A stretch of 23,735 bases of DNA, from IMG/VR virus record IMGVR_UViG_3300025869_001198, positions 1 to 23,735 of that record. The stretch is one strand, 5' to 3'. Numbering within the stretch: position 1 is the first letter of the stretch; the number at the start of each line of letters is the position of its first letter. Positions 1,054 through 21,896 of the stretch are shown here, piece after piece. The notes under the pieces are model-generated. The model worked only from the letters and a program-made list of their open reading frames with translations. It did no database searches and was not told the origin of the DNA. The DNA is from a virus. Position numbers and translations under genes: made by a program.

Positions 1054-3057
1054 TTAACCTCCTACCTCACTAAACGATACGCCCGTTCTTACGGCAATAA
1101 AGTTCAGTGTAATAAAGTTAATGGAACGAGCAGGTTTGATGAAGATATCACCAATAAACTCGTTACGGTCAATCACCTCTCCAGTGTTGTTTGTTGCGTC
1201 ACAAATTACACTGAAGTCGGTAATACCTCTACGACCTTGGACATCACGAAGGAAAGGTTCAACTAGGTTACGGAACTGTGCCCGAGTAAACTCATCGTTG
1301 AATTCGAAGAGTTGGAACTTAGCAGCAGTTGCGATTGCCTTCTCAAGAACCAAGAATAGACGACGCACGTTAATGCGGTCAAATGCACTTGGTTTTGAAA
1401 GTGCAGTCTTATCACCGAATAGAACCACACCTTGGCCGGGGAAGTCCGTTACAGGATTAACTCTTGCACGGTATAGACGATCTCTCTCTGCCTTCGTTGG
1501 ATTGAAGGAGAGTTTGATTGCACCACGAACATTACCACGGTTGAAACCAGCGGGTGAGAACCAAGGGTCTGCAACACCATCTGTGTATGCACAAAGACCA
1601 GCAGTATCACCATTCAATGGAACGAATCGATACACGTCATTATACTTATCGTAGATGTATTTGTATCCACTGTCGAACACCATGTAAGATGATGATGGGC
1701 AAAGGTCAAATGCATCAATCACATTGTCTGCCTGTGTGATGTTAGATGCAACATTCACTGTAGCAGCACGATATGGTGATACGAAACCAACACAGTCTTT
1801 TCTCAACTCAACTAGGTCTGTGATCATAGTCACATGAGTGTCCTGTGCAGCGGCAGTATCTCCAACAGCAGAACTTGGACCACCTAGAACTAGGTTAATG
1901 TCAAGTGATTCGGTGTCTGCAAAATTGTCGTATGCAAGAGCAATTTCACCAGCGGTTACTGCATAGTCGTCTGTGCCACCCGCAAGAGTGACCACAACAG
2001 GCGCATTCACAGCAGTGTATGCTGCTGTAACATCTGTACCCCAGTTTGTACCAGCAGATGTGTGATCCATCCAGTAAATAAAGTTAGACTGACGGTAAAT
2101 AACGTCTGGATAGTAGTTACCACCACCCTGTGCAGTCTTTGCAACAGGGTTCTTAGACATGTTGGCAAACACTTCAATGATACCGTTTGTGCGGTTACCA
2201 GCAACGTCTACGTCGAAACCAGTAATGTCACCAGTTGTGTCATAAACACAAACATGGAGTTCATCACCAGTACCACGTCCGTTTGCAGTGGCCCAATCTG
2301 ATGTGCCGGGAGCACCATCAAATAGGTCATAGAAACGCCAACGTCTACGAATGAAACTGTTATCGGGGATGATTGCTTTAACACCAGCACTGTTTGGATC
2401 GTCTTTCAGACGAACTGTAAGGTCATTTGTAGAAATTGCAGTAATTTCATACTCGTTTCCTTCATCACCAGTATTGAATGCGAATGCTGTTGCGTCTGAA
2501 GATGCATCTACACTTGAGAAGGAAATAAGATCACCAACACTAAAGGCAGTACCGTCATCAACACCGATTGTTGTTGAACCAGCAGCATCTTCACCAGTTG
2601 TCTGGTTAGAAGAACCAAGGTTCTGTTCGTATGCAGTAGCATTACCGCAGATGGAAACGCCAATACCATTTCCGTGAGTACCAGCAGTTCTTGCAGCCCA
2701 CTCACCGACAGAACCCGATCCAGTAGAATATGATGCAATATAATGGTCTGTGTCCCGAATAAGGACCGCAGAACCAGTTGCAACAGCGTTTACAATACCT
2801 GATTCTGCACGGACTACTCGTAGTGCATCTCCATATTGTAGAAAGCTTGATGCAGTAAACCAAAATTCAAAATTTGAACCATTAGGTTTACCAAATACTT
2901 GTATCAATTCCTGTTCAGATGAGATTGCTGTTACAGTAGAAACTGGACCCTTTTCAAAAGGACCGGCAATCGCACCGATAGAAGTTGATACAGCGGGAAC
3001 GACATTCGTAAGATCAATTTCTCTTACATGAACGCCAGGTGAAACTAGAAATCCCAT
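1054..3057 (-). CDS. 18: Contractile tail sheath protein gp18
   Basis: A 667-residue contractile tail sheath protein, nearly the length of T4 gp18 (659). The N-terminus (GFLVSPGVHVREIDLTNVVP) is the usual sheath start, with the PGV.V.E motif. The C-terminal ~100 residues carry the most conserved part: DVQGRRGITDFSVICDATNN, then DRNEFIGDIFIKPARSINFI and TLNFIAVRTGVSFSEVG, close to the T4 C-terminus. The variable, Ser/Thr/Gly-rich middle (about residues 100-370) is the surface-exposed domain region. The ATG has a clear AAGGAG site, and a perfect TATAAATA late promoter lies 41 bases upstream. It heads the gp18-gp19-gp20 transcription unit. Confidence 0.96.
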   Translation of the reverse strand: MGFLVSPGVHVREIDLTNVVPAVSTSIGAIAGPFEKGPVSTVTAISSEQELIQVFGKPNGSNFEFWFTASSFLQYGDALRVVRAESGIVNAVATGSAVLIRDTDHYIASYSTGSGSVGEWAARTAGTHGNGIGVSICGNATAYEQNLGSSNQTTGEDAAGSTTIGVDDGTAFSVGDLISFSSVDASSDATAFAFNTGDEGNEYEITAISTNDLTVRLKDDPNSAGVKAIIPDNSFIRRRWRFYDLFDGAPGTSDWATANGRGTGDELHVCVYDTTGDITGFDVDVAGNRTNGIIEVFANMSKNPVAKTAQGGGNYYPDVIYRQSNFIYWMDHTSAGTNWGTDVTAAYTAVNAPVVVTLAGGTDDYAVTAGEIALAYDNFADTESLDINLVLGGPSSAVGDTAAAQDTHVTMITDLVELRKDCVGFVSPYRAATVNVASNITQADNVIDAFDLCPSSSYMVFDSGYKYIYDKYNDVYRFVPLNGDTAGLCAYTDGVADPWFSPAGFNRGNVRGAIKLSFNPTKAERDRLYRARVNPVTDFPGQGVVLFGDKTALSKPSAFDRINVRRLFLVLEKAIATAAKFQLFEFNDEFTRAQFRNLVEPFLRDVQGRRGITDFSVICDATNNTGEVIDRNEFIGDIFIKPARSINFITLNFIAVRTGVSFSEVGG

Positions 3058-3105: not shown

Positions 3106-3148
3106 AAAAAGTAGTTTTGCAGAACATCAATTTATAAGTGTTATATCA

Positions 3149-3161: not shown

Positions 3162-3461
3162 ATGAATGAACATTACGAAAAATACAAAGATACCATCAAA
3201 AAGGTATCTAGGAGAAACTACCAGAAGCGTAAGATACTTCTGGAAGAGTTTCTAGTTGATAAATCATGTAGACACTGTGGTGAGTCTGAACATGTGTGTC
3301 TCAAGTTCTATCCTCATGATGCAGAGATACGCAAGGTATCAAAGAGAGTTGGGACAAGTGATGATAGCCGAAAAGAAGTCTTTCATCTCATAGACCAATC
3401 CGTTATCCTCTGTTATAACTGTTATATTAAGAAACACCACGATTTAATCGAATTTATTTAA
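3162..3461 (+). CDS. Small HNH-endonuclease-like zinc-finger protein
   Basis: A 99-residue, very basic N-terminal protein (KKVSRRNYQKRK) with two Cys pairs, C36xxC39 and C84xxC87. A LKFYPHDAEIRK segment follows the first pair, and CYNCYIKKHHD ends the core. This spacing is that of small phage HNH proteins: CxxCG, then LxFHHxD, then LCxNCHxxxH. The second His of the usual HH pair is kept (PHD) but the first is Tyr-Pro, so nuclease activity is uncertain. The ATG at 3162 is preferred over a GTG at 3138, which would add eight residues without a ribosome site. It opens a plus-strand block in an otherwise minus-strand region, beside two transport genes. Such genes are often free-standing homing endonucleases, which is an inference here. 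Confidence 0.7.
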   Translation: MNEHYEKYKDTIKKVSRRNYQKRKILLEEFLVDKSCRHCGESEHVCLKFYPHDAEIRKVSKRVGTSDDSRKEVFHLIDQSVILCYNCYIKKHHDLIEFI

Positions 3462-3467
3462 CCTATA

Positions 3468-3473
3468 TATAAT
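3468..3473 (+). promoter_or_regulatory. Possible sigma70 -10 box for the transport genes
   Basis: A TATAAT hexamer lies 33 bases before the ATG of the solute-binding protein gene, in the 45-base gap after the HNH-like gene. No convincing -35 box is seen at the right distance. A good AAAGGAG ribosome site follows at 3493-3499, seven bases before the ATG. Confidence 0.35.
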
Positions 3474-3506
3474 AGTAAATGATTTGAGTCATAAAGGAGT
3501 ATTATT

Positions 3507-4477
3507 ATGAAATCATTAATTTGTGGGGTATTTACCCTACTACTATGCATGTCTTCAGTTCATGCATCAACACCCGCAAAATTTATTGTAGATACTGGAC
3601 CCTTTGGGGTGCATAGTTGGTTTCTGAAAGGCATCAAAGACGGTGCATTTTCTAAACGTGGATTAGATATTGAATTTGTAGGAAAGGCCCCGGCAGTATT
3701 AAAACTGGTCTTGCTATCGCAACTGGAAGAGCAGATATTGGATATCATGACTATAGTGGTGTAGTTCTTGTCAATAGTAAATCAACTGACCCTAAAGTTT
3801 TAACAATCCTTGTCGTTGATGACAAGGCACAAAATGGAGTGATTGCACTTAAATCATCGGGTATTAAGACATTCGATGATCTAAATGGACGTAAACTTGG
3901 TAGTCATCCCACTAGTTTCATCGTTAAGACCTTACCCATAGTAACACAGTCTAAATGGATAGATGTTACTATGCAGATGCCTGCGCGGTCGCCTGCACTG
4001 GTTTCTGGGCATGTGGATGCAATCACCGCATTTACAACAACCTCAATTTTCAATTTGGAAAAGTCAGGAGTTGGTATTGACAAATTAAATATTATTAAAC
4101 TTAGTGACCACTTTCCAATGGCAGTAAGTCGAGTAATTACTGTAAATGCAAACTGGGCAGAAAAAAATCCACATGCAGTAAAAGTTCTTCGTGAGGTATC
4201 ACGTCAATTACTGAACGATTTTATTAAAAATCCTGATGCAAGTGTGTCTGCATTGGAAGGTCCAATTGTATCTACAGATAAAAAGGTGAATACTGAAATC
4301 AGAAGGGCTCAATACAGTATTGACGAACTTGTTAATACACCATTTGTAAAGAAGAATGGAATTAGTAATCCTAGTGCAGTTGGTCCTCGTTTGAGTGAAT
4401 TCACAACCCTTCTGGTAGAAAAAATGAATTTACCAACTCGTCATCCAGATAACAAGTATTTTGATTTAGGTAAATGA
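3507..4477 (+). CDS. Periplasmic solute-binding protein, NMT1/SsuA type, with one frameshift
   Basis: The N-terminal 21 residues form a Sec signal peptide (MKSLICG, a Leu-rich core, then SVHA before the cleavage site), so the product is periplasmic. The mature start (PAKFIVDTGPFGVHSWFLKG, then AFSKRGLDIEFV) is the usual N-lobe of NMT1/SsuA/TauA binding proteins. These serve importers of sulfonates, taurine, nitrate or thiamine-pyrimidine precursors. The frame is broken near 3683. The first frame runs to a stop at 3764. The family sequence continues in the -1 frame (KGPGSIKTGLAIATGRADIG, then GVVLVNS) to the stop at 4477. With the shift repaired the protein has 323 residues, normal for the family, and there is no other damage. 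The last codons overlap the permease start as ATGA. The substrate cannot be read from the sequence. Confidence 0.85.
3680..3692 (+). other. -1 frameshift site in the solute-binding protein gene
   Basis: The zero frame reads GTA GGA AAG GCC CCG. The family-like continuation needs GTA GGA, then AAA GGC CCC GGC AGT, so one base is missing or the ribosome must slip back by one. The run A GGA AAG resembles the lambda tail slippery site G GGA AAG, with one mismatch in the P-site part. The simplest alternatives are loss of one A from an AAAA run in the phage, or a homopolymer error in sequencing or assembly. Confidence 0.8.
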
Positions 4478-5208
4478 AACACGTACTTGTAACTATTTCC
4501 GTAGTTGTACTCACATGGGAATTATTGATAAGGGGTGAATATATTCCTGGCTTATGGGATATATTCACCACCTTCTTTGCGTTATCAGTTAATCCAGATT
4601 TTCTTTATAACCTATGGACTAGTCTGTGGAGACTTGTTGTAGGTTGGTCAATTGGAATGTTAATTGGAACCACTATTGGTGTCTTCATGGGTACTAATAT
4701 CCATGTGAAGAAACTTGTAATGCCATTAGTGAGTTGTTTATTTCCTATTCCAAAAATCGCACTACTACCTCTGTTCATAGTTCTTCTAGGAATAGGAGAA
4801 TTAAGCAAGATAACAACTATCTTCATCGGTGCATTTTTTCCCAGTATATTGAACGCATATAATTCTATTATAAGGACACCCACCATCTATGTGGAAGCAT
4901 CTCGTTCTTGTGGTGGTGGTTACTGGTTCACGTTACGAAAAATAATTTTACCATATAGTACGCCAACAATAATCTCAGGATTTAGAACAAGTGGTAGTTT
5001 GTCATTGGTGTTATTGGTTGCGGCAGAAATGTTAGGTTCAAATTATGGTTTAGGAAACTGGATATTCATAACTGGTGGAGAAATGGATTTTGCAGAAATG
5101 TTTGCTGGAATAATCTGGCTCAGTATAATTGGTTTAGGAATTGGTTGGGGTACAGAGTTTTTGAAACGTAGATTTTGTCATTGGAGTACACATAATGAGG
5201 GTGTTTGA
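4474..5208 (+). CDS. ABC importer inner-membrane permease, SsuC/TauC type
   Basis: A 244-residue polytopic membrane protein with hydrophobic segments near residues 1-17, 55-73, 83-107, 112-130, 173-190 and 205-226. It carries the BPD-type EAA loop at 141-160 (EASRSCGGGYWFTLRKIILP), which docks on the ATPase. The family signature AEMLGSNYGLGNW follows at 184-196. Both are typical of nitrate/sulfonate/taurine permeases (SsuC, TauC, NrtB), which have about 250 residues. Its ATG overlaps the stop of the binding-protein gene (ATGA), so the two are translationally coupled. No ATP-binding subunit is present in the window, so the transporter would need a host ATPase or one encoded elsewhere. Its TGA abuts the stop codon of gp17 on the other strand, with no bases between. 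Confidence 0.92.
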   Translation: MKHVLVTISVVVLTWELLIRGEYIPGLWDIFTTFFALSVNPDFLYNLWTSLWRLVVGWSIGMLIGTTIGVFMGTNIHVKKLVMPLVSCLFPIPKIALLPLFIVLLGIGELSKITTIFIGAFFPSILNAYNSIIRTPTIYVEASRSCGGGYWFTLRKIILPYSTPTIISGFRTSGSLSLVLLVAAEMLGSNYGLGNWIFITGGEMDFAEMFAGIIWLSIIGLGIGWGTEFLKRRFCHWSTHNEGV

Positions 5209-6852
5209 CTACCAACTTCCAGAACTATCTCTTATGATAGGAGCCCAACGAGTTCCATACTCATCTACCATCTCACCAATATTCTCGTCCTCTAATCCAT
5301 TCACAACAAAACCAAACGGAGCCATATCCTGTTCCAGTGAGTCTTGTTGTTCTCTCATCATGGTCATACGAATATCACTGTCAGTAAGTTCCTTAAAATA
5401 CTGTTGGTCTGTCATCCATGAAAAAATAAATAGACACGCAACTAAGTCATCATTACACCCATCATCTGCTTCGTATGAATGTCCTTTCACAATAAAGGTA
5501 GACAACTCATTGATAACATCATAGTCCTCTACAATAAGTTTATTGTCCTCAACCATTTGTTTGAGATTAGAACACCCAATCTTCTTAACTGCCTTCGTTG
5601 TTCTTACACCCAACTGAGCCCTACCACCAGAGAAACCTCCACCAAGAACCTGTCCCGCACGTCCTCGCATCGATGCCATAATTAGGTTGTCATACTCTAG
5701 GTCAAACTGCATTGCGTTTGCGACCTGTTCACCGATATCGTTCACCTCAATCAACACGAATGCCTGATTGTATGCCCTTGCAACATCGTATATCTTTGAG
5801 GGAAAGATGAGAGGTTTCAGTTCGTTGTCTCTAAACTTTGCAACCAACTTGTACGGCATCTGTGTAACATCAAACACACAGAATGCAGAATAGTCGTTTG
5901 AAGTACCTCTAGAAACGTCAGCGGTGAGGACGTAGGTGTGTCCTTCCTGTGGAGGTATGTGAACATCCAACCCTGCATTAGACTGTTTGGGTTCTCTGTA
6001 AGTCATTGTGCGAAGTTTTGAAGGTGTAATAAGAGTATCGATAGAACCAAGAAACTCACACTCAAACTCTGTGTTAAACTGTGCCTCTGATGTGTTCTTA
6101 ATTGTCTCTGCTTTCCACGCCTCGTCTCTACCAGGCACTTCTGACCAGTGAACCTCAATAGGAACATATGTGTTACGTCCCTCTTCTGCATCCACCCACA
6201 ACTTGTAGAACATATTCATACCATGTGGTGTAGAAACAATCATCACCTTCGTTGACTTACCAGATGAAATCGTAGGATACACAGAACTGAAGAACTGTTC
6301 TGCTACGTTAGCAGGAACGTATGCAAACTCATCAAGAAAAATAATATTATATGAACCACCACGAACAGCACTAGCCGAAGTGGAACTTGCAAGAATTTTA
6401 GAACCATTCTCTAACTCCAAGGAACCTTTGTTCCATGCCATGACACCTTGTTGCAACCACTTGGGTAGATGTTCGTATGCCAACTGCAAACGACCAAGAA
6501 GGTCACGAGCAGTTGCTGCCTTGTTCGCAAGGATTGCAACGTTCACACTATCGTTAAACAGAACGTAATGTAAAAGGTATGAGATAATTGTTGTGGACTT
6601 ACCAGACTGTCTAGGAAGTTTGCAGATGGTAAAACGATTACTATGGAAGGTTCCCACCATCTCCTTCTGAAAATCATACATCTTAAACGGCACCAGTCCC
6701 TCGTCAAGAGAAACAATCTTGACGTAGTTCTGAATGAAATACAGGGGGTCTTCCATGCATTTCTGATATTCTTGAAGTTCTTCTTTCGTCCAAGACTGTG
6801 CAACGTTAGCCCGTTTGAGATTTGGGTTTCCTAGATAGACTTCTTCAGTCAT
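5209..6852 (-). CDS. 17: Terminase large subunit gp17 (packaging ATPase/nuclease)
   Basis: A 547-residue DNA-packaging motor and headful nuclease; T4 gp17 has 610. ATPase domain: Walker A RQSGKST at 81-87, Walker B IIFLDE with D174/E175, and coupling motif MIVSTPHG at about 204-211. Nuclease domain (RNase H fold): acidic residues at D312 (LTADVSRG), E369 (VLIEVND) and D468/D469 (GCNDDLV), matching the T4 triad D401/E458/D542. All key residues are present. The ATG overlaps the stop of the 58-residue gene (ATGA), so the two are probably coupled and driven by the late promoter at 7031-7038. In T4, gp16 is directly upstream; here three extra genes separate them. Confidence 0.97.
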   Translation of the reverse strand: MTEEVYLGNPNLKRANVAQSWTKEELQEYQKCMEDPLYFIQNYVKIVSLDEGLVPFKMYDFQKEMVGTFHSNRFTICKLPRQSGKSTTIISYLLHYVLFNDSVNVAILANKAATARDLLGRLQLAYEHLPKWLQQGVMAWNKGSLELENGSKILASSTSASAVRGGSYNIIFLDEFAYVPANVAEQFFSSVYPTISSGKSTKVMIVSTPHGMNMFYKLWVDAEEGRNTYVPIEVHWSEVPGRDEAWKAETIKNTSEAQFNTEFECEFLGSIDTLITPSKLRTMTYREPKQSNAGLDVHIPPQEGHTYVLTADVSRGTSNDYSAFCVFDVTQMPYKLVAKFRDNELKPLIFPSKIYDVARAYNQAFVLIEVNDIGEQVANAMQFDLEYDNLIMASMRGRAGQVLGGGFSGGRAQLGVRTTKAVKKIGCSNLKQMVEDNKLIVEDYDVINELSTFIVKGHSYEADDGCNDDLVACLFIFSWMTDQQYFKELTDSDIRMTMMREQQDSLEQDMAPFGFVVNGLEDENIGEMVDEYGTRWAPIIRDSSGSW

Positions 6853-7045: not shown

Positions 7046-7492
7046 TTATTTGTTAGTTCTAAAGATCACATCCCAAAAAGGTGTGTGTAAACCGAAATTT
7101 ACATTCAATCTTGTGTGGTGAGTCAGATGCCATTTTCCTGCTGCTATAAATGGAACATTAAATTTAGGGTTATGTTCTATAATCTCAACAATTAGAGCAG
7201 ACCATAACCAATACATTACTAGTATCCACCACTGTCCGGTTATGATACTATAAAGTATGGTTGGTATGACTTCTGTTAACCACAGATCAACGGTGCTTTT
7301 CCATGTGTCTTCAATTAAAAATATATCTGTCCAACTCCAACCTGTCGGATTCTCTAATCCGTTATTCCAATTTTCAGTAATGTATCTATGATGACCTGAA
7401 TGAAAATAGTTAGTCCATTCCGTAATATGAACTATTCTATGTAACCAATAGATAAAAAATGTCCAAACCAAATAATGAAAAAAATATTCCAT
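7046..7492 (-). CDS. Fatty acid hydroxylase / sterol desaturase superfamily membrane enzyme
   Basis: A 148-residue integral membrane di-iron oxygenase. The full set of metal-binding His motifs is visible: HRIVH at 18-22, HSGHH at 31-35, EHNP at 106-109, HLTHH at 122-126, then NFGLHTPFWDVIF at 132-144. These fit the pattern HxxxH, HxxHH, HxxHH plus NxG...WDxxF of the fatty acid hydroxylase superfamily. Hydrophobic stretches at about 3-17 and 70-105 would span the membrane with the His clusters on the cytoplasmic face. It is shorter than most members (often 200-300) but keeps the core. The family oxidises lipid chains, sterols or carotenoids using O2; the substrate here is unknown. An AGAGGA site precedes the ATG, 14 bases after the stop of the PP-loop gene. 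Confidence 0.9.
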   Translation of the reverse strand: MEYFFHYLVWTFFIYWLHRIVHITEWTNYFHSGHHRYITENWNNGLENPTGWSWTDIFLIEDTWKSTVDLWLTEVIPTILYSIITGQWWILVMYWLWSALIVEIIEHNPKFNVPFIAAGKWHLTHHTRLNVNFGLHTPFWDVIFRTNK

Positions 7493-7506: not shown

Positions 7507-8502
7507 CTAATCTGAACGCACAAATGTTCCATTTTCATATACAATCTTATTTATAATGGGGGTTATAGAGTCAGGTCGATAATGTGGCCATTTTTTCCAA
7601 ATTTTAGGCACTGAACCTTCTGGTATTTTTTGCAAAAAATAGTCCTCGTCTTTATCATATTCGTAAATAATTTTTTTCATTGGCCACTTGTATGTATTCC
7701 ATGTTCCGTTGTGACCAGCACTTGGATTCATTAACGACCAAAGATCAAAATAATCTGTAGTGAAAAAAGAATACTCTAAATTATAAACAGATGGGTCTTC
7801 AAGGAATCTAGGAGATATGTATATTTGTGATAAATCATCTATTATTTTTGACATCCACCAAAAGAACTCCCAAATTGTTTCTGGTTTATATGGCGATATT
7901 TCAATATGATTATTAACAACTTCTAACGTATCAGGATTTGAGATTATATTCACCCAGTGATCGTCTTTGATTTCGAATAATGTTTCTAAGTCTATTGAGT
8001 GAGGTAATGCTAAAAATAATTCATTTCCACCACCACCATTTACATTTATGGTTTCACCACTCCATATTTCAGGATTTCTCCACGGATGATTTGTTGATGA
8101 ATGCCATTGCAATTTAACTTTCTTATTCACCAACAAATCATAAAAACGAGGATTTTCTTGCACACTATCCGTTGACAGATAAACTATAAGGTTTGTATTC
8201 AGTCTTCTAGTTTTTAGAAGACTTACCAATGCACATGTGCTGTCTATACCACCAGACCACCATAATCGTATTGGTTTACCAATATCCCACAACTCTACAG
8301 CCCTGCGACTAGTCAACTCTTCGAAGGTTGGTGTAAAATTTGTAGGAATTTCTGGAAATGGATTGTCAACTAAATCAAAATAATTATCAAACCCAAACCT
8401 AAAACGAGGAGAGTGTAACGCACAAAAAGATGCTAATTTATATTCTGTTCTGTCACTTATTTCTGGAAAAGAATTTAGATGATAATAAAGAACTTTACTC
8501 AC
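7507..8502 (-). CDS. Asparagine-synthase-type PP-loop ATP pyrophosphatase without glutaminase domain
   Basis: A 331-residue protein with an N-type ATP pyrophosphatase motif, SGGIDST at 83-89, after a strand (KPIRLWW). It later has GGGGNELF at 156-163, in the place of the GNGGDE loop of asparagine synthetases. It lacks the N-terminal Cys-dependent glutaminase domain; the first ~80 residues instead are an unrecognised segment with the helix (EELTSRRAVELW) that leads into the PP-loop. The chemistry expected is adenylation of a carboxylate (or similar) with release of pyrophosphate, followed by attack of an amine or ammonia. It starts with GTG, overlaps the end of gp16 by 8 bases, and has an AAGGG site. 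The substrate is unknown. Confidence 0.8.
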   Translation of the reverse strand: MSKVLYYHLNSFPEISDRTEYKLASFCALHSPRFRFGFDNYFDLVDNPFPEIPTNFTPTFEELTSRRAVELWDIGKPIRLWWSGGIDSTCALVSLLKTRRLNTNLIVYLSTDSVQENPRFYDLLVNKKVKLQWHSSTNHPWRNPEIWSGETINVNGGGGNELFLALPHSIDLETLFEIKDDHWVNIISNPDTLEVVNNHIEISPYKPETIWEFFWWMSKIIDDLSQIYISPRFLEDPSVYNLEYSFFTTDYFDLWSLMNPSAGHNGTWNTYKWPMKKIIYEYDKDEDYFLQKIPEGSVPKIWKKWPHYRPDSITPIINKIVYENGTFVRSD

Positions 8503-8902
8503 TTTTACCCTTTAACATTTTTTGTAACTCAGCGGTGCTACCAACAAACAAAGCATTTGTTACATTCTTAGGTCCGTGGTCTGGAACCTCTTTGAGTTTT
8601 TTCATTTTCTCTTGAAGTTCACCAAGTTTCTCAGTAACATCAGCAACCTGTTTGATGAGGTTTCCGGCAACTTCATACGCTCGTGGATGTTCCGATTCTC
8701 TGGCAAGTTCCAGTATTCCTTCCACTGCATCCGTTCCTCTTTCGACCAGATTGTAGAAGTTTCGTCTTTGGTATTCATAGTCATTTTCTACGTCATCTCC
8801 ATTACTAGGCATAACAATTTCTTTTTTTTCTACGACAACCTCTTGGGGAACAACCTTGTTGATGACCCCAAGTGCTTTCTCTATTTCAATTTCTGTTGAC
8901 AT
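8495..8902 (-). CDS. 16: Terminase small subunit gp16
   Basis: A 135-residue regulator of DNA packaging that recognises viral DNA and stimulates the gp17 ATPase; T4 gp16 has 164. By eye it aligns along its length with T4 gp16: an acidic DDYEYQRRNFYNLVERGTDA segment (T4 DDYGVVRRNMHFQQQML), SEHPRAYEVAGNLIKQVADV (T4 [20 protein letters not shown]), a central coiled-coil region with TEKLGELQEKMKKL, and a C-terminal NVTNALFVGSTAELQKML (T4 NATVFMGSPTDLMDEI). The position between gp15 and gp17 agrees. A CATAAATA late-type octamer lies immediately upstream. The ribosome site is weak. Confidence 0.92.
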   Translation of the reverse strand: MSTEIEIEKALGVINKVVPQEVVVEKKEIVMPSNGDDVENDYEYQRRNFYNLVERGTDAVEGILELARESEHPRAYEVAGNLIKQVADVTEKLGELQEKMKKLKEVPDHGPKNVTNALFVGSTAELQKMLKGKSE

Positions 8903-8909
8903 AACCTAT

Positions 8910-8917
8910 TATTTATG
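8910..8917 (-). promoter_or_regulatory. NATAAATA-type late promoter candidate before gp16
   Basis: Minus strand CATAAATA, seven of eight positions of the T4 late consensus. It overlaps the stop codon of the upstream asparagine-synthetase-like gene and leaves seven bases before the gp16 ATG. The position fits a late gene, but the leader would be very short. Confidence 0.4.
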
Positions 8918-10280
8918 CGGGAATTTTTATTCCTCTATCCTGTAAATATTTTTTTTGAAAAACTTTAGGTGTTTGATTTTTAATCCATGGCATAACATGT
9001 AACCATTCTTGTGCAAACTTTTTATCATAAAATGCATTTCTATTCTCAATTCCATAGGCCAATGACAAAGTTTCAAACAGGTCAAGTAAACGTCTTGATT
9101 GTCCTCCATAAAAGTGTTGCCACGGAAATACTGTTGATAAATCCTCAGGCCAGATAGAAAAACCAGCTGGATTTTTATTCATAATGCCGTTGTACCTCAA
9201 CGAATGCCCAGTCGGTAACGATGGATAATTATCAAAAATTTCATCTCCTCCGTTTCCAGTAAATATAACTTTACTGTTAAATTCAGAAATACATTTTTCT
9301 CTCATAAACCAAGATGTTCGAAGAGATAAATTTGCAGACACTAATCTGTTTCTATTATTCTTCCATTTGGATTTTGAATTTATTTCATCCCAAGATATAT
9401 CTATATCGGGGGGAAGGTTTTCTATCTTAATATTTTTATTATATGTGCCTGTATACTGAATAACTTGATTCAATGTTTCCATATTTTCGCGGCCTTCCCA
9501 TGGCCCTGTTAAACAAGTCATACTATTAAAATGTTTTTTATGGTCAGTTAAACACAATGCAATAGGTGAACTATCTAAACCACTACTGAGAAGTATAGTT
9601 AAATTTTCTGTATGACGTTTAAGAACTGCTTCTTCAAAAGAATTGGTAAGATCATCCAAATTATCTTTATACTGATTTAAATCCCATTTATGAAGTTCTG
9701 TATTAACTGGTTCCAATACACCAGTTTTTACATTATAATTATGATGACTGTTATGTGGAATTCTATAGAATGTTTTATTCCATTCAATATCGTTATACAC
9801 AGCGAACTTGAGCTCAAAGGGTGTTTCTAATCCCGCCGGTCCAAATCTTCCATCTTTAGGTTCTGTCATTGGATAGGTGCTGAAATAGAAATAATTATCA
9901 ATTTTGTAATAAAATGCTTGTCTTGTACTCCACGGATCAGTAAATAAATCTATGGTGTCAGTTTTCTCATCATAAACTATGAATAGAAATTCACCATCCA
10001 AATATTCTGTAAATTTGTCACCATATTCTAAATATTTGTCAATGCAAAAAAAGATACTACTGAATAATGGATGACGATTATAAATTTCTCCAATCAATAT
10101 ATAATATTTGTTATGATGTTTGAAAGGTTGTACAACATCTTTTCCAGTAATACTTGATAGGTGGTGTGTTATATAAACACCATTAACATCTATAGTATTA
10201 CTAGCATCAGGTCCACCTAACTTCAAATGATCATCAATTATTATTGAGTTTGGATTATTAGTTATTTTAAAAGTACACAT
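8913..10280 (-). CDS. Asparagine synthetase-like amidotransferase, paralogue 1
   Basis: A 455-residue class II glutamine amidotransferase/PP-loop protein of AsnB architecture. The N-terminal domain starts Met-Cys, with Cys2 in the nucleophile position, followed by GEIYN at 64-68 and LDGEF at 94-98. The synthetase domain has PP-loop SSGLDSS at 232-238 and TGNGGDEIFDNY at 341-352. Two glutaminase residues differ from E. coli AsnB: the oxyanion Asn in NGEIYN is Ile, and the RRLSI loop that binds glutamine is replaced by HHLSSI. Ammonia supply may therefore differ. Its ATG overlaps the end of paralogue 2 by 19 bases. AsnB-like enzymes in surface polysaccharide clusters amidate sugar acids; plain asparagine synthesis is the alternative. 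Confidence 0.88.
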   Translation of the reverse strand: MCTFKITNNPNSIIIDDHLKLGGPDASNTIDVNGVYITHHLSSITGKDVVQPFKHHNKYYILIGEIYNRHPLFSSIFFCIDKYLEYGDKFTEYLDGEFLFIVYDEKTDTIDLFTDPWSTRQAFYYKIDNYFYFSTYPMTEPKDGRFGPAGLETPFELKFAVYNDIEWNKTFYRIPHNSHHNYNVKTGVLEPVNTELHKWDLNQYKDNLDDLTNSFEEAVLKRHTENLTILLSSGLDSSPIALCLTDHKKHFNSMTCLTGPWEGRENMETLNQVIQYTGTYNKNIKIENLPPDIDISWDEINSKSKWKNNRNRLVSANLSLRTSWFMREKCISEFNSKVIFTGNGGDEIFDNYPSLPTGHSLRYNGIMNKNPAGFSIWPEDLSTVFPWQHFYGGQSRRLLDLFETLSLAYGIENRNAFYDKKFAQEWLHVMPWIKNQTPKVFQKKYLQDRGIKIPA

Positions 10281-11611
10281 GGTCTGTTTATATTATTTAA
10301 GTCCGTGACTGAAGTGCCTTGTAAACTAAATCCAACATCAGGGTTAGACCATTCGAGTATACCACACTTCCTTAGATACTCTTTAGAAATATGTTTGTAT
10401 TCTATATTTTTATAATGAGGTTTCAAATTTAACCAATCTTGTGCGAGTTGTTTATCATAAAAAACGCTTCTTACTTCTTGTCCAAAAAAACAACAATATG
10501 TGTAATGATAATCTATGGAATTTATATAACCATATGATTTTCTGTCATCCTCATACAATCTTCTGTATGGAAAGATTTCATTTTGATTTTCAGGCCATAA
10601 ATCAAAATTAGCTGATCGCCCCGGCCCATCAGAATTGTTTTTACCCCTATACGCATCAATAATTTCATCACCACCATTACCCATTAAAATTACCTTACTG
10701 CCAAAAGATAATGCAAGTTTTCTTAGTTCAGATGATACTGTATGTTTCGGATAATAATCTGCGTTATCTCCAAGATGTTCTGCTGTTACATAAGTATGGT
10801 TAATATAATCACCACAATACTCAACTACCTTATCAATGGCGGTTTGGTTTTCACCAGCCTTAACAATGGATGTGATTGCATTAAAATGTTTTTTGTTTTT
10901 TGCTAAACAACATGCAATAGACAAACTATCAACTCCACCACTCATAAGAAGTGTAGAATTAGGATACCATCTTTTATTTACGGCATTCTCAAATGATAGA
11001 ATAACTTTATCGAGGTCATCACTATTCTGTTCCAAATCCCACTTATGTAGGTTTTCATTTACAATATCAAATTCTTTTGTATCAACATCAAATACAACAT
11101 GTGAATTTGCAGGCAATCTATAATGACCTTCCAAATTTTTAAAATATTTGAATGCTTCTGGTCTTTCTAGTCTTCTATCGTAGTATTTGGGGTCACATTT
11201 GTTTGTTAAAGAGGTAAAATAAAAATTATCACCATCTTGAAAGTAATATGCTTGTTTTGTAGAAAATGGGTCAGTGAAAAAATGAATTTTTCTATCATCA
11301 ACAACAATGAATAAAAATTCACCGTCTAAGTGTTCTGTAAATTTATCACCATATTCATTATATTTTTCGATACCAAAATAAATATCACTTGGCCAAGAAT
11401 CATCGTAATTATAAATCTCACCGATTAACATAAAATATTTCCCACCCTGATAAATTGGTTGTGGTGTTATTTCACCAGTAATATTTAATAAGTGATGGGT
11501 TATGTAGATACCGTCAAGTTCTACAGTTCTTGATTCTGTTGGTCCACCAACTTTCAAATATTGGTCTATCAACAATTCAGTTGAGTCATTAGTTATTTTG
11601 AAAGTACACAT
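10262..11611 (-). CDS. Asparagine synthetase-like amidotransferase, paralogue 2
   Basis: A 449-residue protein of the same architecture as its downstream neighbour. Both start MCTFKITN and share LKVGGP/LKLGGP, GIYITHHL/GVYITHHL, YGDKFTEHLDGEF/YGDKFTEYLDGEF and LHKWDL. Cys2 is the expected glutaminase nucleophile. PP-loop SGGVDSL is at 224-230 and GNGGDEIIDAY at 311-321. The oxyanion Asn (Ile63 in LIGEIYN) and the glutamine-binding Arg loop (HHLLNI) are changed as in paralogue 1. It has about 25 C-terminal residues more than paralogue 1 after the shared YL.KCGI/YLQDRGI end. It has an AGGTGG site and follows the PP-loop gene by 13 bases. The pair looks like an old tandem duplication. Confidence 0.88.
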   Translation of the reverse strand: MCTFKITNDSTELLIDQYLKVGGPTESRTVELDGIYITHHLLNITGEITPQPIYQGGKYFMLIGEIYNYDDSWPSDIYFGIEKYNEYGDKFTEHLDGEFLFIVVDDRKIHFFTDPFSTKQAYYFQDGDNFYFTSLTNKCDPKYYDRRLERPEAFKYFKNLEGHYRLPANSHVVFDVDTKEFDIVNENLHKWDLEQNSDDLDKVILSFENAVNKRWYPNSTLLMSGGVDSLSIACCLAKNKKHFNAITSIVKAGENQTAIDKVVEYCGDYINHTYVTAEHLGDNADYYPKHTVSSELRKLALSFGSKVILMGNGGDEIIDAYRGKNNSDGPGRSANFDLWPENQNEIFPYRRLYEDDRKSYGYINSIDYHYTYCCFFGQEVRSVFYDKQLAQDWLNLKPHYKNIEYKHISKEYLRKCGILEWSNPDVGFSLQGTSVTDLNNINRPCVLLK

Positions 11612-11624
11612 TAGTTATTTCCAC

Positions 11625-12416
11625 CTATTCATAAATTAAGTACGGCAATTTTCCATCCTCGTCTCTACCCCTATACAGATAGGTTTCTGGGTCAGCTTCA
11701 TGTCTCCAAGGACCATAACTTCCATGTTTGGCACAATACAAATCAAAGTCTCTTCCCGTCTTGTCATCTTCAACAAATTTTTGATAGGTTTTCCAGTATG
11801 CTATTTCACGCCCCTGACGAGTATAATTATATCTAATAACTAAATCTTGCAATTCTTTTGGTAAGAATTCATATTGTTCAAATCGACCTATCATATGTTT
11901 TGCGAGTTCATCATATTTAAAATTATCACCAATTGGTACTGGACTTAATTCTTTTACACCAGCCAAATATATATCAACACCAATATTTTCAATACCACAT
12001 ATTAGACGACTTAAATCATAACCTTGAGTTGAAGTATTTTCTAAAGATACACCAATTGATACTGCATCAACATTAGTTTCAAGACACCATTTAGTAATTC
12101 CGAAATATCTTGGTTTAAGAGCACCAATGTTATAAGTTCCTTTTGTAAAACCTGACCGAATAGGAATACGTTCTTCTACATATTCTTTGGGAAACTCACC
12201 CATTTCTAAATTAAAATTACGATATTCTTTTTTAAGAAAGTTTGTTATGTTTTTAACTCTTTCAAGTTCTTCTGAATAGTAGTCATCATCTTCAAAACGA
12301 TCAAATCCATATCGAACAACAACATCAGCGTCAGTCTCAGTTAACCAGCGATAAAGAGAATATGTTGAGTTTATGCCACCGGAGAATGGTATAAGTATTT
12401 TGTATCTATCACTCAT
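11625..12416 (-). CDS. PP-loop (adenine nucleotide alpha hydrolase) protein
   Basis: A 263-residue N-type ATP pyrophosphatase. The PP-loop IPFSGGINSTYS is at 9-20, in a first strand followed by helix YSLYRWLTETDADVVVRYGF. The C-terminal part is rich in Tyr, Arg and Lys (YCAKHGSYGPWRHEADPETY). It looks related to the QueC-like protein at 14958: compare TNFLKKEYRNFNLEMGEF with CNWLKENVRDFDFGFAEF. It lacks the Cys cluster of that protein. The ATG at 12416 overlaps the gp15 stop by 8 bases and has AGGTG just upstream. An in-frame GTG at 12422 would add two residues. The reaction is probably adenylation of an acid or carbonyl oxygen; the substrate is unknown. Confidence 0.75.
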   Translation of the reverse strand: MSDRYKILIPFSGGINSTYSLYRWLTETDADVVVRYGFDRFEDDDYYSEELERVKNITNFLKKEYRNFNLEMGEFPKEYVEERIPIRSGFTKGTYNIGALKPRYFGITKWCLETNVDAVSIGVSLENTSTQGYDLSRLICGIENIGVDIYLAGVKELSPVPIGDNFKYDELAKHMIGRFEQYEFLPKELQDLVIRYNYTRQGREIAYWKTYQKFVEDDKTGRDFDLYCAKHGSYGPWRHEADPETYLYRGRDEDGKLPYLIYE

Positions 12417-13209
12417 CTTCACCTGTCACTGGATTATAATTCTTCGCATCTTCAAAGAATGAGGTTGTCTCACTGAAACCAAAATCATCATCAGCGTCAG
12501 CACTAGTTGGGTTTGGTGTAACTGCGTACCTCTGTTCTCTCTTGGGCGACTGATCAGGTAGGTCTGTGTATTGATCAACCTGTACAGTCTTGATAACCTT
12601 ACTAGAGGTAACAGGACCATAGAGATGGAACTTAGCAGTAAAGGAAAGAGTGTATATAATGGCTCTACGGTTTGCAAAGTCACCCTGATAATCGTCCTCG
12701 TAACCAATACTGTTTAGGACAACAGGGACATCTCTCTTGATACCCATGTCTGTGTTATCATTTAGTGTGATTGTGTAATCAGGTTGAAAGTATGGTAGAA
12801 TCTGTTCTACAATCTGTAAGGCATCATCTGACTGTTTAGATAGAATGTAGAGTTCAAAGTCAATGTTGTATGGGACAGGCATATACTGCGTGTCCAACTG
12901 GTCAGACTTTGCACCCTTCACTTTCTTGAACTTCTGCACACGTTGTAGTTTGCGTGATGGGTCATATGTCATACCAGTAATCTCAAACCCAATACGAGGT
13001 AAAGTTACTGCGGTCTGATTAGACAAAGAAGGGTCGTCATTCAAACGAACAAGGAATTTCTGCCGTGGACCATATGCAAGAGGAACCTTCATAGACTGTT
13101 GAATAGTTCCACTGTTGTCTTTACGAACAAGATGAATGTCATTGAAAAGTGAGCCGAAAGAAACGACTACCTTACGAATTGTTTCGTGATAAAACTGTTG
13201 TCCCAACAT
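12409..13209 (-). CDS. 15: Tail sheath terminator/stabiliser gp15
   Basis: A 266-residue homologue of T4 gp15 (272 residues). Gp15 caps the finished tail as a hexamer and joins it to the neck. Matching stretches by eye: VVSFGSLFNDIHLVR (T4 YATLMGDLFSNIQIKR), VPLAYGPRQKFL (T4 VPITYASKEHFM), the near-identical QIVEQILPYFQPDYTITLND (T4 QIVEQILPYFQPHFNTTMYE), IKRDVPVVLNSI, and the FANRRAIIYTLSFTAKFHLYG strand (T4 LSRRRIEWSLTFEVNGWMYP). The C-terminal ~50 residues are acidic and probably disordered. The ATG shares one base with the gp14 stop (TAATG), indicating coupled translation. Confidence 0.95.
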   Translation of the reverse strand: MLGQQFYHETIRKVVVSFGSLFNDIHLVRKDNSGTIQQSMKVPLAYGPRQKFLVRLNDDPSLSNQTAVTLPRIGFEITGMTYDPSRKLQRVQKFKKVKGAKSDQLDTQYMPVPYNIDFELYILSKQSDDALQIVEQILPYFQPDYTITLNDNTDMGIKRDVPVVLNSIGYEDDYQGDFANRRAIIYTLSFTAKFHLYGPVTSSKVIKTVQVDQYTDLPDQSPKREQRYAVTPNPTSADADDDFGFSETTSFFEDAKNYNPVTGEDE

Positions 13210-14957: not shown

Positions 14958-15689
14958 TTATGTATTGTGAGGTTTCGTTGGTAATGGATGATTGCCATAA
15001 ACATTATGTCTAGTTTCTTTAACACTGTCTTTTGTGTAATATTTTCCGTATTTTCCCTCTTTCATAATTAAATCATCAAGTTCCTCTGCACTAAACCCTT
15101 CGTGTTTCTTTTTATTATACCATTCCCAACACTTACACTTAGAACATTCTCCACAAGGACAAATGGAAATCAACTTTTGTAGTTCTTGTGGTATTGATTC
15201 CCATGTTTGCCACCGACCCATAGGTTTCGTTTCACGACTCATTAGGGGCCAATCAATAAGAATATCTGTGTAATCTCTAAAAATAGAATGATCTAATCTA
15301 GTATATGGATTACCCCTTTCATAAAACTTTCCAATAGGTTCTGTAGTTTGAAAATACCAATTAGAGGGACTCCAATTATATGTATTATAACCCATGCATA
15401 TCAAATCTACGTCATGCATTTCTGATAACAGTGCAATATTATATAATTTTGACCTTATGGTTTCTAACATGGTATCACTAGCACGATCTTCAAACTCTGC
15501 AAAACCAAAATCAAAATCACGGACGTTTTCTTTCAACCAATTACAGACAATAGGATAATGTTCTAAATCTTGATCAGATGCGTCAAGGTGAAGTATCCTT
15601 GATATTACATCATCCGTAGTTTCAGTAAGAAGTTTATACAACATAGCTATACTGTCTGAAGATGAACTAGTTGCTGCAAAAACTTTCAT
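14958..15689 (-). CDS. QueC-like PP-loop protein with Cys cluster and altered PP-loop
   Basis: A 243-residue protein. Near the N-terminus KVFAATSSSSDSIAMLY sits where PP-loop enzymes have a strand followed by SGGxDS; here the two Gly are Ser but Asp-Ser is kept. Near residues 177-187 it has ICPCGECSKCKCW. Five Cys in eleven residues include CGxCxxC, the zinc-site pattern of QueC (7-cyano-7-deazaguanine synthase). The rest does not obviously follow QueC, and no other queuosine genes are visible, so the substrate is open. The ATG at 15689 has GGAG five bases upstream and is preferred over an ATG at 15704 without a ribosome site. It overlaps the end of the glycosyltransferase gene by 23 bases. 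It is probably a paralogue of the PP-loop protein at 11625. Confidence 0.75.
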   Translation of the reverse strand: MKVFAATSSSSDSIAMLYKLLTETTDDVISRILHLDASDQDLEHYPIVCNWLKENVRDFDFGFAEFEDRASDTMLETIRSKLYNIALLSEMHDVDLICMGYNTYNWSPSNWYFQTTEPIGKFYERGNPYTRLDHSIFRDYTDILIDWPLMSRETKPMGRWQTWESIPQELQKLISICPCGECSKCKCWEWYNKKKHEGFSAEELDDLIMKEGKYGKYYTKDSVKETRHNVYGNHPLPTKPHNT

Positions 15690-16371
15690 AGTCTCTCCAC
15701 TCATGCGGTTTGTTTCTGTGGTTTGTAAAATGTACGAACTTTATATCTGGATGAAACTCCCCACCCATATATATCCAATCATTACCTGTCTTTTCTTTAT
15801 ATTTTTCAGTCATACTGTATTGCCAAGTTCTGGTGTTTTTATAATCAATAACTTTATTATCTGCAACCCATCTGGTAAACCATTCGTCAGGAAGTGTAAT
15901 GAGTTCTAGTCTCTCATTCACACTATCTCCTACAAAATATTGTTCCCCATTTACTGGTCCTGTAGTAGTTCCGTTTTCAATATAGAACTTTTGCCAGTGA
16001 TGCACATCACTCATAAACTTATCGTAGATGTAACGACACTCCTTCGGATAGTATTTGAAGAAACCACCATTGAGTTGATAAAGATTTGAGTCATTTCTCC
16101 ACCATCCCGGCATCGCAAGAAACTGCCCCGGCTTGATTGGATAGTCAAAAACCTTCTTATAATCATTGGCCAATAGAATGTCAATGTCCATAACACAGAT
16201 AGGTTCATCAGTGTCCATCTGCATACCCCACATCTTGTTCCATTGCAAAGTTACGTCTGGATGATATGGTTCACGAATCCAGATAAAGTTATGTTCTGGT
16301 AGTTTGTTCTCTAAGTATGTCTCATACTCTGGACCATACTTATCACCGATACGAACTGCTACGATATCCAT
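15667..16371 (-). CDS. Glycosyltransferase-like protein (GT-A fold, DxD)
   Basis: A 234-residue protein with features of small nucleotide-sugar glycosyltransferases. It begins with strand IVAVRIGDKYGPEYETYLEN and has ICVMDIDILLANDYKKVFD, whose D62-I-D64 is a DxD metal/nucleotide-sugar site. Then come GQFLAMPGWWRNDSNLYQLNGGFF and a C-terminal IKFVHFTNHRNKPHEW, where His and Lys would close over the donor. This pattern resembles GT8-like enzymes of marine phages. It overlaps the unknown 428-residue gene by 13 bases and the following PP-loop gene by 23, so it lies inside one cotranslated run. Donor and acceptor are unknown. It is similar in plan to the protein at 18956 (RGWWND/PGWWRND; KFLFLDLDVI/ICVMDIDILL). 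Confidence 0.8.
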   Translation of the reverse strand: MDIVAVRIGDKYGPEYETYLENKLPEHNFIWIREPYHPDVTLQWNKMWGMQMDTDEPICVMDIDILLANDYKKVFDYPIKPGQFLAMPGWWRNDSNLYQLNGGFFKYYPKECRYIYDKFMSDVHHWQKFYIENGTTTGPVNGEQYFVGDSVNERLELITLPDEWFTRWVADNKVIDYKNTRTWQYSMTEKYKEKTGNDWIYMGGEFHPDIKFVHFTNHRNKPHEWRDYESFCSN

Positions 16372-19770: not shown

Positions 19771-20562
19771 CTATAAATAAATATTTTTATATTCATTGAA
19801 TAACATCTCTCCTATATACTGATGGCCTTTTTTGTTTGGATGAGTGTCCTCCATTGACATTCTATAAATTTTTCCTGATGGGTCAAGTTTATCTAAAAGG
19901 CTATCTATATTATAACCACCTATCCTCTTGAAAATAGGCCATCCTATAAATTTGTTTTCATCTATTTTCTTAAAGAGAGGGTGTGATATAAATTCTTTAA
20001 TTCCTATTTCATGATCGGCGGGGCCCGCTTTAAAAGTTTTAAATGAACCATCAGCAAGTTTGCCAAATGATACATCTTCGGCAAATTCTTCCGTCCCTTG
20101 TATCATAAGATATTGCACATTTTTTAACAATTCTTGAGCTAGAAAAAAAGTTCTTAAAGATTTCATTGATTTAGCTTTAAAATTTAAATATTTTGATATG
20201 TTTTGTTTTGCCTCTATGTTTATAGGAAATTTTCCTAAAGAGTTAGCTCTATGCGGATGAAAAGTATTCCAACCGAGATATCCCTCTCCTGTTTCAAAAT
20301 CTAGTCTTGGCCATTCACTCCACATAATAACAACCAATCCAATATTTTTTTCATCAATAACATCCAGAACCTTGGCAAGCATGTACTCGTTACCCTGACC
20401 AGAATTGCCTAGATTAACACACTCCATATCAAGCATATCTGCAAGGTGTTGCGGCCACCTTGGAAAATCAAAGTCTAAATTAGGACTCCGAAACGACCGT
20501 AAATTGTGATGAGTATAACTGCATCCTATAGCAATGAGTTTTTTTCTAGAAGACTTGAACAT
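19771..20562 (-). CDS. SGNH/GDSL-type hydrolase
   Basis: A 263-residue protein with the SGNH blocks. Strand KLIAIGCSYTHH places the nucleophile at S15 (block I, GCSYT). NLGNSGQGNEYM at 50-61 gives the block II Gly. VIMWSEWPR at 78-86 stands at block III, where the usual Asn is not kept. DTHPNKKGHQYIG near 239-251 supplies the catalytic Asp and His (block V). The family cleaves or transfers esters, often O-acetyl groups of glycans or lipids. The 'GCSYT' start is common in phage SGNH proteins. The ATG at 20562 is preferred because it puts the block I strand close to the start; an ATG at 20589 would add nine residues and a longer overlap. Neither has a clear ribosome site. It overlaps the carbamoyltransferase end. 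Confidence 0.82.
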   Translation of the reverse strand: MFKSSRKKLIAIGCSYTHHNLRSFRSPNLDFDFPRWPQHLADMLDMECVNLGNSGQGNEYMLAKVLDVIDEKNIGLVVIMWSEWPRLDFETGEGYLGWNTFHPHRANSLGKFPINIEAKQNISKYLNFKAKSMKSLRTFFLAQELLKNVQYLMIQGTEEFAEDVSFGKLADGSFKTFKAGPADHEIGIKEFISHPLFKKIDENKFIGWPIFKRIGGYNIDSLLDKLDPSGKIYRMSMEDTHPNKKGHQYIGEMLFNEYKNIYL

Positions 20563-21883
20563 TATATAATTTTGAAAACTCCATCGCATCGTTCCAAGTA
20601 TCCACTATCGGCATACCCTTTATATTTAGGGATGTGTTCAGAAGCATTGGACAACCTGTTTCATCATACCACTCCTCCAGTATTGAACGGATTATAGAAC
20701 TACAATCTTTCTTAACCACCTGTACTCTTGCAGTTCCATCAACGTGTGTAACAGAACTATAATCGTGTTTGGCTTTTGCGACAAACTGCATGTACTCGTT
20801 CATTGGTCCTTCGAAGTATTCGTCTGCATATTCCTCTAGAATTGCTGGTGCAAAGGGACGAAAATTCTGTCGTTTCTTAATGTCGTTTACAGTATCCTTG
20901 ATGTCATATCGTGGATCACCAAGGAGTGAACGATTACCAAGTGCCCGTGGTCCAAACTCTGCACGACCATTTGCAACACCACACACTTTGTTCTTCAACA
21001 ACTCTTCTACCACCTTTTTTGGATTTACACCCCTACCAATAAAAGTTCCAAGGTATGGGTTTCTCCATTTCAACTTTCTTTTAAGAACCAGTGCTGCAGC
21101 GCCCAACGCACTACCAGCATCGCCGGGTGAAGGCATAATCCAAATGTTCTTGTTCTTGATCTTTGAGTTTGCAACACAATTCAAAGCACATCCACCCATA
21201 AGAACTAAGTTTTCACTTGGACATAACTCTACAAGTTTAAGTAGTTCCCTCTCATACAGGTCTTGTATGGACGCTGCGAGGTCACTAGCCTCTGCTTTTG
21301 GATATATGTTTCCCACGCCTTTGTGGTTATTATTCCATAATAGATCACTAAGATCATACTTGGGTTCACCAAATGCAGACATACCCATTGTGATATACTC
21401 ATCCTCATTAGGTTTCAATCCGATACGTTGTGTGATTGCTGAATAGAGAAGACCAAGAGAGTGAGGATACTTCCAAGTCATAATTTTCTTCATGCTATCA
21501 TTTTTGCAGTGCCATATAGACATGGTGTCCCACTCACCAATTGCGTCAATGACTAGGACGTTGCACTCATCAAAAGAGGATGTGTAATAACCAGCCGCAG
21601 CATGGCACTCATGGTGACCAAAATACATATCGTATTTTCTACGAGGTTTCTGCCACTTCTGACCAGCGTAGAGTCGTCGCAAGTTCTTACGAAAAGGTTT
21701 CTCGTAATACGCAATTATGTCTGGTTTATTTAATTTAGATTTTGGTAACTGTGTGGGATGTATCCACTTATCACCCTTTTTTCGACTATGACGTTCACTA
21801 TGTGAAGCAAAATAAATTCGGTCATTCTTCAGTAAGCAAATGCCAGCGTCATGGAATCCTTCAGAAAATCCAAGTACATTCAT
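20546..21883 (-). CDS. Carbamoyltransferase, NodU/CmcH family
   Basis: A 445-residue carbamoyltransferase that uses carbamoyl phosphate and ATP to put a carbamoyl group on a hydroxyl, often of a sugar. All main motifs are visible. In the Kae1-like domain: HDAG at 11-14, HHECHA at 90-95 (metal-binding His), DAIGEWDT at 113-120, GMSAFGEPKY, GGCALNCVAN at 230-239 and GDAGSALGAA at 254-263. In the C-terminal domain: EFGPRALGNRS at 309-319, RPFAPAIL at 342-349 and NTSLNIKGMPIVDT at 416-429. The length is somewhat short for the family (often 500-600). The ATG at 21883 has GGAA six bases upstream and gives the usual start; an ATG at 21895 is possible. Members occur in many marine T4-like phages. It heads the modification run. 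Confidence 0.95.
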   Translation of the reverse strand: MNVLGFSEGFHDAGICLLKNDRIYFASHSERHSRKKGDKWIHPTQLPKSKLNKPDIIAYYEKPFRKNLRRLYAGQKWQKPRRKYDMYFGHHECHAAAGYYTSSFDECNVLVIDAIGEWDTMSIWHCKNDSMKKIMTWKYPHSLGLLYSAITQRIGLKPNEDEYITMGMSAFGEPKYDLSDLLWNNNHKGVGNIYPKAEASDLAASIQDLYERELLKLVELCPSENLVLMGGCALNCVANSKIKNKNIWIMPSPGDAGSALGAAALVLKRKLKWRNPYLGTFIGRGVNPKKVVEELLKNKVCGVANGRAEFGPRALGNRSLLGDPRYDIKDTVNDIKKRQNFRPFAPAILEEYADEYFEGPMNEYMQFVAKAKHDYSSVTHVDGTARVQVVKKDCSSIIRSILEEWYDETGCPMLLNTSLNIKGMPIVDTWNDAMEFSKLYNVQVF

Positions 21884-21896
21884 AATAATTTCCATA

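Follow-up and report, generated by a model that had tools for sequence, protein, structure and literature searches.

The locus described here raises two questions, namely whether an ABC importer pair made of a solute-binding protein (SBP) and a permease truly belongs to the phage that carries it, and which ATPase would drive such an importer. The window, by which we mean the whole stretch of DNA analyzed, is a 23.7-kb virus record (IMG/VR) of a T4-like phage, and the pair occupies 3507-5208 on the plus strand, opposite to the virion genes and flanked by tail sheath and terminase large subunit (TerL) genes (Table 1). The permease starts inside the stop codon of the SBP gene, forming an ATGA overlap at 4474-4477, and it is unbroken and has the canonical EAA loop (EAA...G...I-LP), as the preliminary description of this DNA had read it. 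The closest isolates by TerL are the OM43 phage Melnitz (70.5% identity) and the SAR11 phage HTVC008M (68.7%), and by this measure the window and its relatives are a clade of ocean T4-like phages in the Melnitz/HTVC008M group.

Table 1. Features of the window, in order of position
Feature	Coordinates	Strand	Assignment or remark
Contractile tail sheath (gp18)	1054..3057	-	PF17482/PF04984
Small HNH-endonuclease-like gene	3162..3461	+	phrog_3106 E=6e-6; abuts cassette
Conserved leader of the SBP gene	3464..3499	+	TATATATAAT box 3464-3473; AAAGGAG ribosome-binding site 3493-3499
NMT1/THI5-like secreted SBP gene	3507..4477	+	PF09084; split in the window record
Predicted Sec signal peptide of the SBP	3507..3566	+	MKSLICGVFTLLLCMSSVHA; read from the sequence; lipobox not clear
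ABC importer permease, 244 aa, SsuC/TauC/NtrB-like	4474..5208	+	BPD_transp_1, PF00528 E=1.2e-20
EAA (coupling) loop, permease residues 136-160	4879..4953	+	contains YVEASRSCGGGYWFTLRKIILP; expected ATPase contact
Terminase large subunit (gp17)	5209..6852	-	PF03237/PF17289; end directly abuts permease stop codon
Fatty-acid-hydroxylase-like gene	7046..7492	-	PF04116
Several PP-loop/asparagine-synthetase-like proteins	7507..12422 and 14958..15704	-	by eye
Two AsnB-like paralogues	8913..10280 and 10262..11611	-	by eye
Carbamoyltransferase gene	20546..21895	-	PF02543/PF16861

The ATG at 3162 of the HNH-like gene aligns with the start of its Melnitz counterpart, while the ORF list begins the gene at a GTG at 3138. 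No Rfam family, riboswitches included, reached its gathering score in the window, and the 331-, 265- and 248-aa PP-loop/asparagine-synthetase-like proteins had no Pfam match. Orthology between the PP-loop genes near the pair in the clade member L015 and those in L028 and L017, two loci of the lineage described below, was unconvincing.

In the window itself the loss of one base from a short A-run at 3683-3685 splits the SBP gene into two ORFs of different frames (3507-3764 and 3839-4477). The contig L001, which is 98.9% identical to the window over 9.9 kb, encodes an intact SBP of 323 aa, and the A-run deletion (~3683) is the sole indel between the two from about position 500 to about 9800 of the window; it may be a sequencing error or a rare variant. 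Searches with the SBP used the intact L001 protein, and PF09084 matched an intact homologue over its cut-off (E=6.7e-22) and the 3′ ORF of the window with E=3.7e-14. The preliminary description had the SBP overlapping the permease between gp17 and gp18 on the opposite strand and missed the frameshift; the SBP is not a single frame in this contig, but the arrangement holds for the family and the SBP is intact in L001 and in all fully covered relatives. The TATATATAAT/AAAGGAG leader is near-invariant in the upstream alignment of the other window-clade loci compared.

In IMG/VR the scans recovered 17 to 22 loci with the permease and 25 with the SBP, and at least 16 contigs share one site for the pair, where it stands tail-to-tail with TerL and beside the small HNH gene. 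Members of the window clade (L001-L016) have it between the HNH gene, itself beside the tail sheath gene, and TerL, and the permease stop directly abuts the TerL end in the clade loci inspected. A second, sister lineage (L017 and L026-L028) keeps the pair at another place, close to genes for ribonucleotide reductase, with 53-62% identity to the window clade for the SBP and 64-75% for the permease. All fully covered copies (17 plus L026-L028) are intact, with SBPs of 322-336 aa and permeases of 244-246 aa, and median dN/dS values are 0.23 (SBP) and 0.17 (permease); judged by these ratios, the pair is kept under purifying selection. A stable site among virion genes, conserved reading frames and purifying selection, the marks of an auxiliary metabolic gene of a tailed phage, are all present. 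Host contamination fails as a reading because the pair is flanked by virion genes or phage ribonucleotide reductase genes in 17-25 viral loci, and the idea that either gene is degenerate in all relatives is contradicted by every fully covered relative. The pair is real, viral and conserved, well beyond chance. That it consists of decaying passenger genes left by a recent host capture is very improbable and already largely refuted, since the frameshifted SBP copy of the window, which would fit decay, stands against intact frames in all other fully covered relatives, the low dN/dS, the presence of the pair in two lineages at two genome positions, and the searches run, in which no close cellular SBP parent was found.

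Comparison with the isolates suggests how the site was built. In Melnitz the gap between gp17 and gp18 is occupied by a single small gene, which lies on the opposite strand and is 55.6% identical to the HNH gene of the window; in HTVC008M the gap is empty. The complete Melnitz genome has no homologues of the SBP, the permease or an ATPase. Because neither isolate has the pair at this site, it would most simply have been added by insertion beside the HNH gene. The HNH-SBP junction accepts further insertions, as one clade member holds a 375-aa gene there (L015:7688-8815, minus strand).

No cellular parent of the SBP was found in 783 sampled Pseudomonadota genomes at the strict threshold of E<=1e-35, in a set without a positive control; the best SBP match among 14 genomes carrying a cytosolic NMT1-like gene was 6e-27, and plasmid matches had 30% identity or less. 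A permease scan of genome contigs gave no matches, and a profile search then placed an alphaproteobacterial permease orthologue group in 49 of 385 genomes, nearly always with one copy per genome. These permeases are the nearest cellular ones found (37-41% identical) and sit in an SBP-ATPase-permease operon, which gave no substrate because its SBP is only 22-24% identical to the phage SBP and its neighbor genes vary. Permease matches in INPHARED (25-34%) were set aside as phage relatives and taken as host DNA, since some of those records annotate tauC/ssuC as in hosts.

The ATPase is the part that decides how the pair could work. No PF00005 transporter ATPase was found in the window, in agreement with the preliminary description, where the phage SBP and permease are coupled but have no ATPase beside them, nor in the clade records of 50.7, 49.9, 15.3, 15.1, 14.9 and 11.9 kb, which cover roughly half or less of the genome, and an ATPase may lie elsewhere. 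In these records, then, no ABC ATPase is encoded with the transporter; partial PF00005 matches in the two largest (G001 and G002) belong to gp46-like recombination proteins and not to transporters. The second lineage gave a different result, as its member G003 has, some 20 kb away from the pair, a gene for an ATPase of the importer type, whose best NCBIfam matches are SaoA, TauB and NtrCD; this gene adjoins one for a cytosolic NMT1-like protein without a signal peptide. A search for an ATPase across the genome, proposed earlier, thus returns none in the clade, with incomplete records, and one in G003. The relative G005, whose flanking genes are 65-99% identical to those of G003, has the same site without either gene, so the ATPase and the NMT1-like protein are an optional insertion. 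An importer-ATPase profile scan of IMG/VR found nothing above 48% identity to the G003 ATPase except itself. The G003 record also carries a permuted tmRNA (L154:6099-6521; Rfam alpha_tmRNA, 123 bits). Melnitz reportedly has two-piece tmRNAs, a phage gene not following the host lineage, and because of this departure the G003 tmRNA is a weak guide to its host.

A complete vSBP-vATPase-vPermease operon of the same broad class also emerged from the ATPase scan, at about 26 marine viral loci (among them L173, L176, L184, L191, L195 and L200), some of which are cut by the contig end. Some of these operons are in T4-like phages, to judge from gene content: G764 carries genes for UvsX and a DnaB-like helicase, and in one region 12 of its 19 ORFs have Melnitz homologues, while the gp46 of L200 is 65% identical to that of Melnitz. 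Among the operon neighbors Pfam identifies a phosphoribosyltransferase and GTP cyclohydrolase I, and reading by eye adds PurA, PRPP synthetase, PyrB and an IMPDH/GMP-reductase-like protein. The L200 operon also contains an SbmA/BacA-like protein, assigned by eye (L200:5725-6753). The phage SBPs tested against INPHARED had no phage match except at 21% identity in two unannotated Listeria records. These loci and the G003 ATPase, 20 kb from its pair, are what would favor a complete phage importer in the window clade, with the ATPase elsewhere in the same genome, either as in G003 or as a distant complete operon. We regard this as somewhat unlikely, since no ATPase appears in clade records up to 50.7 kb, the IMG/VR profile scan gave no other ATPase above 48% identity to that of G003, and the complete-operon proteins are only about 20% (permease) and 22% (SBP) identical to those of the window, with a different EAA loop in the permease; the window-clade region around gp46 is likewise without a complete operon.

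The contact loop of the permease offers a second line of evidence. The permeases of G003 and L028 are 74% identical overall, but residues 136-160, the least conserved stretch of the protein, match at only 5 of 25 positions (20%) versus 80% elsewhere (Fisher p=3e-9); this test concerns one phage, the genomes are incomplete, and the loop was noticed before testing. When L028 is compared with the window clade, neither of which has a known ATPase, the loop does not differ significantly from the rest of the permease. We infer that the G003 loop has probably been re-tuned to its own ATPase, while the loop of the other lineages was kept for a common partner, which most simply would be a host ATPase. 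Taken together, we find it moderately probable that these phages acquired the pair late, as an importer module which a host ATPase drives in the window clade and a phage ATPase drives in G003. The earlier proposal that the permease recruits a host ATPase would, accordingly limited, remain the best reading for the clade, where the loop is kept and no ATPase was detected, and would not extend to the related G003, which encodes its own.

A dominant-negative or decoy role, in which the phage SBP and permease displace host parts and so shut down or retarget a host importer, could also account for the missing ATPase, and the modest SBP identity between the lineages would suit it. We consider it quite improbable, as purifying selection has kept the two translocation parts together with the canonical EAA loop, and the ATPase gained by one lineage would be needless for a decoy.

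Cytosolic NMT1-like proteins of about 307 aa, without a signal peptide, also occur in other T4-like marine phages (L036-L049, e.g., L043:4823-5746 and L046:9439-10359), in several of them between the major capsid gene gp23 and a tail-tube-like gene. They are about 80% identical to proteins of marine Rhodospirillaceae MAGs, where three copies stand in tandem, and their predicted fold is PBP type II, close to THI5/SsuA. In L043 a PyrB (aspartate carbamoyltransferase)-like gene, assigned by eye, follows directly (5758-6558). On a Geminicoccaceae plasmid (L055:7995-11793) and a Nostoc plasmid (L056:1402-7155, split by a transposase), the cytosolic NMT1-like gene adjoins SBP, permease and ATPase genes, and these neighborhoods suggest that it is functionally linked to the importer.

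As to the substrate, profile searches of the kind proposed in the preliminary description confirmed the NMT1 (PF09084) and BPD_transp_1 families, but none of the NCBIfam equivalogs TauA, SsuA, TauC, SsuC and NtrB reached its curated cut-off (SsuA_fam 42.4 bits against 163.5, TauC 95.9 against 342, NtrB 72.4 against 209), and the best permease matches, SaoP, TauC, SsuC and NtrB, were each below theirs. Among solved structures of this protein class, the SBP profile lies nearest by sequence to a C. difficile SBP with bound thiamin (4nmy, E=5e-8); the matches to the FAMP-binding ThiY (3ix1, E=0.007) and to SsuA (3uif, 0.025) are far weaker. In a low-confidence model of the SBP (pLDDT 52), THI5, 4nmy, CmpC and ThiY gave Z scores of 13.9-14.5, with thiamin- and ThiY-type structures at 14.0 and 13.9, slightly above SsuA (12.6) and TauA (12.4). 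Reading the ligand from the fold was rejected, as the model is poor and the shared PBP fold does not give a ligand. A sulfonate, nitrate or taurine substrate is not favored over a thiamin- or pyrimidine-type one, since no cut-off was reached and the nearest structure binds thiamin; a thiamin- or pyrimidine-like heterocycle is our best current guess, a weak lead to be held with doubt.

Under the host-driven reading of the clade, the SBP would be exported to the periplasm during infection and the permease would form a homodimer in the inner membrane, where a host ATPase of the Ssu/Tau/Nrt/ThiZ class would dock on the EAA loop and power the import of a small organic nutrient. In G003 the module would have been completed by the gained ATPase and its cytosolic NMT1-like partner, with the contact loop changed to match. 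A broader formulation is possible, if more tentative: a split importer, in which the phage encodes the substrate-defining and membrane half and borrows the host ATPase by way of the conserved coupling loop, one lineage having become autonomous with an acquired ATPase and a re-tuned loop. If true, these phages would show successive evolutionary stages of transporter hijacking in nature. Were the pair to rely on a partner in trans, the phage could decide which nutrient its host takes up while the host pays for the motor, and the lineages found bear on the nutrient that limits virus production in streamlined ocean bacteria. The series of lineages, with no ATPase seen in two, one acquired in G003 and a complete operon elsewhere, makes the ATPase question testable.

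We found no description of this SBP-permease cassette in the open-access literature, and the papers on pelagimyophages and on Melnitz (PMC7029224, PMC9004378) do not mention it in the passages found. A 2018 survey of virus genomes lists ABC transporters in mimiviruses and related large viruses and in entomopoxviruses (PMC6163359). Marine virome studies give ABC transporter auxiliary genes as pathway-level counts and propose that viruses may boost uptake (PMC5504273, PMC10224230), and in the portions available these counts describe neither this cassette, nor its site, nor the split. The new element is an SBP-permease pair that is conserved and fixed in its site, with no ATPase detected in two lineages, together with one phage that has an acquired ATPase and an altered loop.

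Several known systems resemble parts of this arrangement. The cytosolic NMT1-like protein beside the ABC ATPase of G003 recalls the known NrtC/CmpC ATPases, which have a cytosolic SBP-like regulatory domain, and CmpC domain structures (9uak, 9u9z) were among the fold-comparison matches; unlike that domain, the G003 protein is a separate gene, not a fusion, and is absent from the window and clade records. Single phage-encoded binding proteins such as PstS are familiar from marine phages, and the pair likewise provides a phage-encoded periplasmic binding protein for uptake in infection, but its SBP is of the NMT1 family and comes with its own permease. The complete vSBP-vATPase-vPermease operons are also phage-borne NMT1-type importers of marine phages, and differ in keeping all three genes together, beside nucleotide genes. 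From the Ssu/Tau/Nrt/ThiXYZ importers the pair differs in being phage-encoded, in standing apart from any ATPase and in an SBP with 30% identity or less to the cellular SBPs seen, but it shares with them the same SBP and permease families and the EAA loop.
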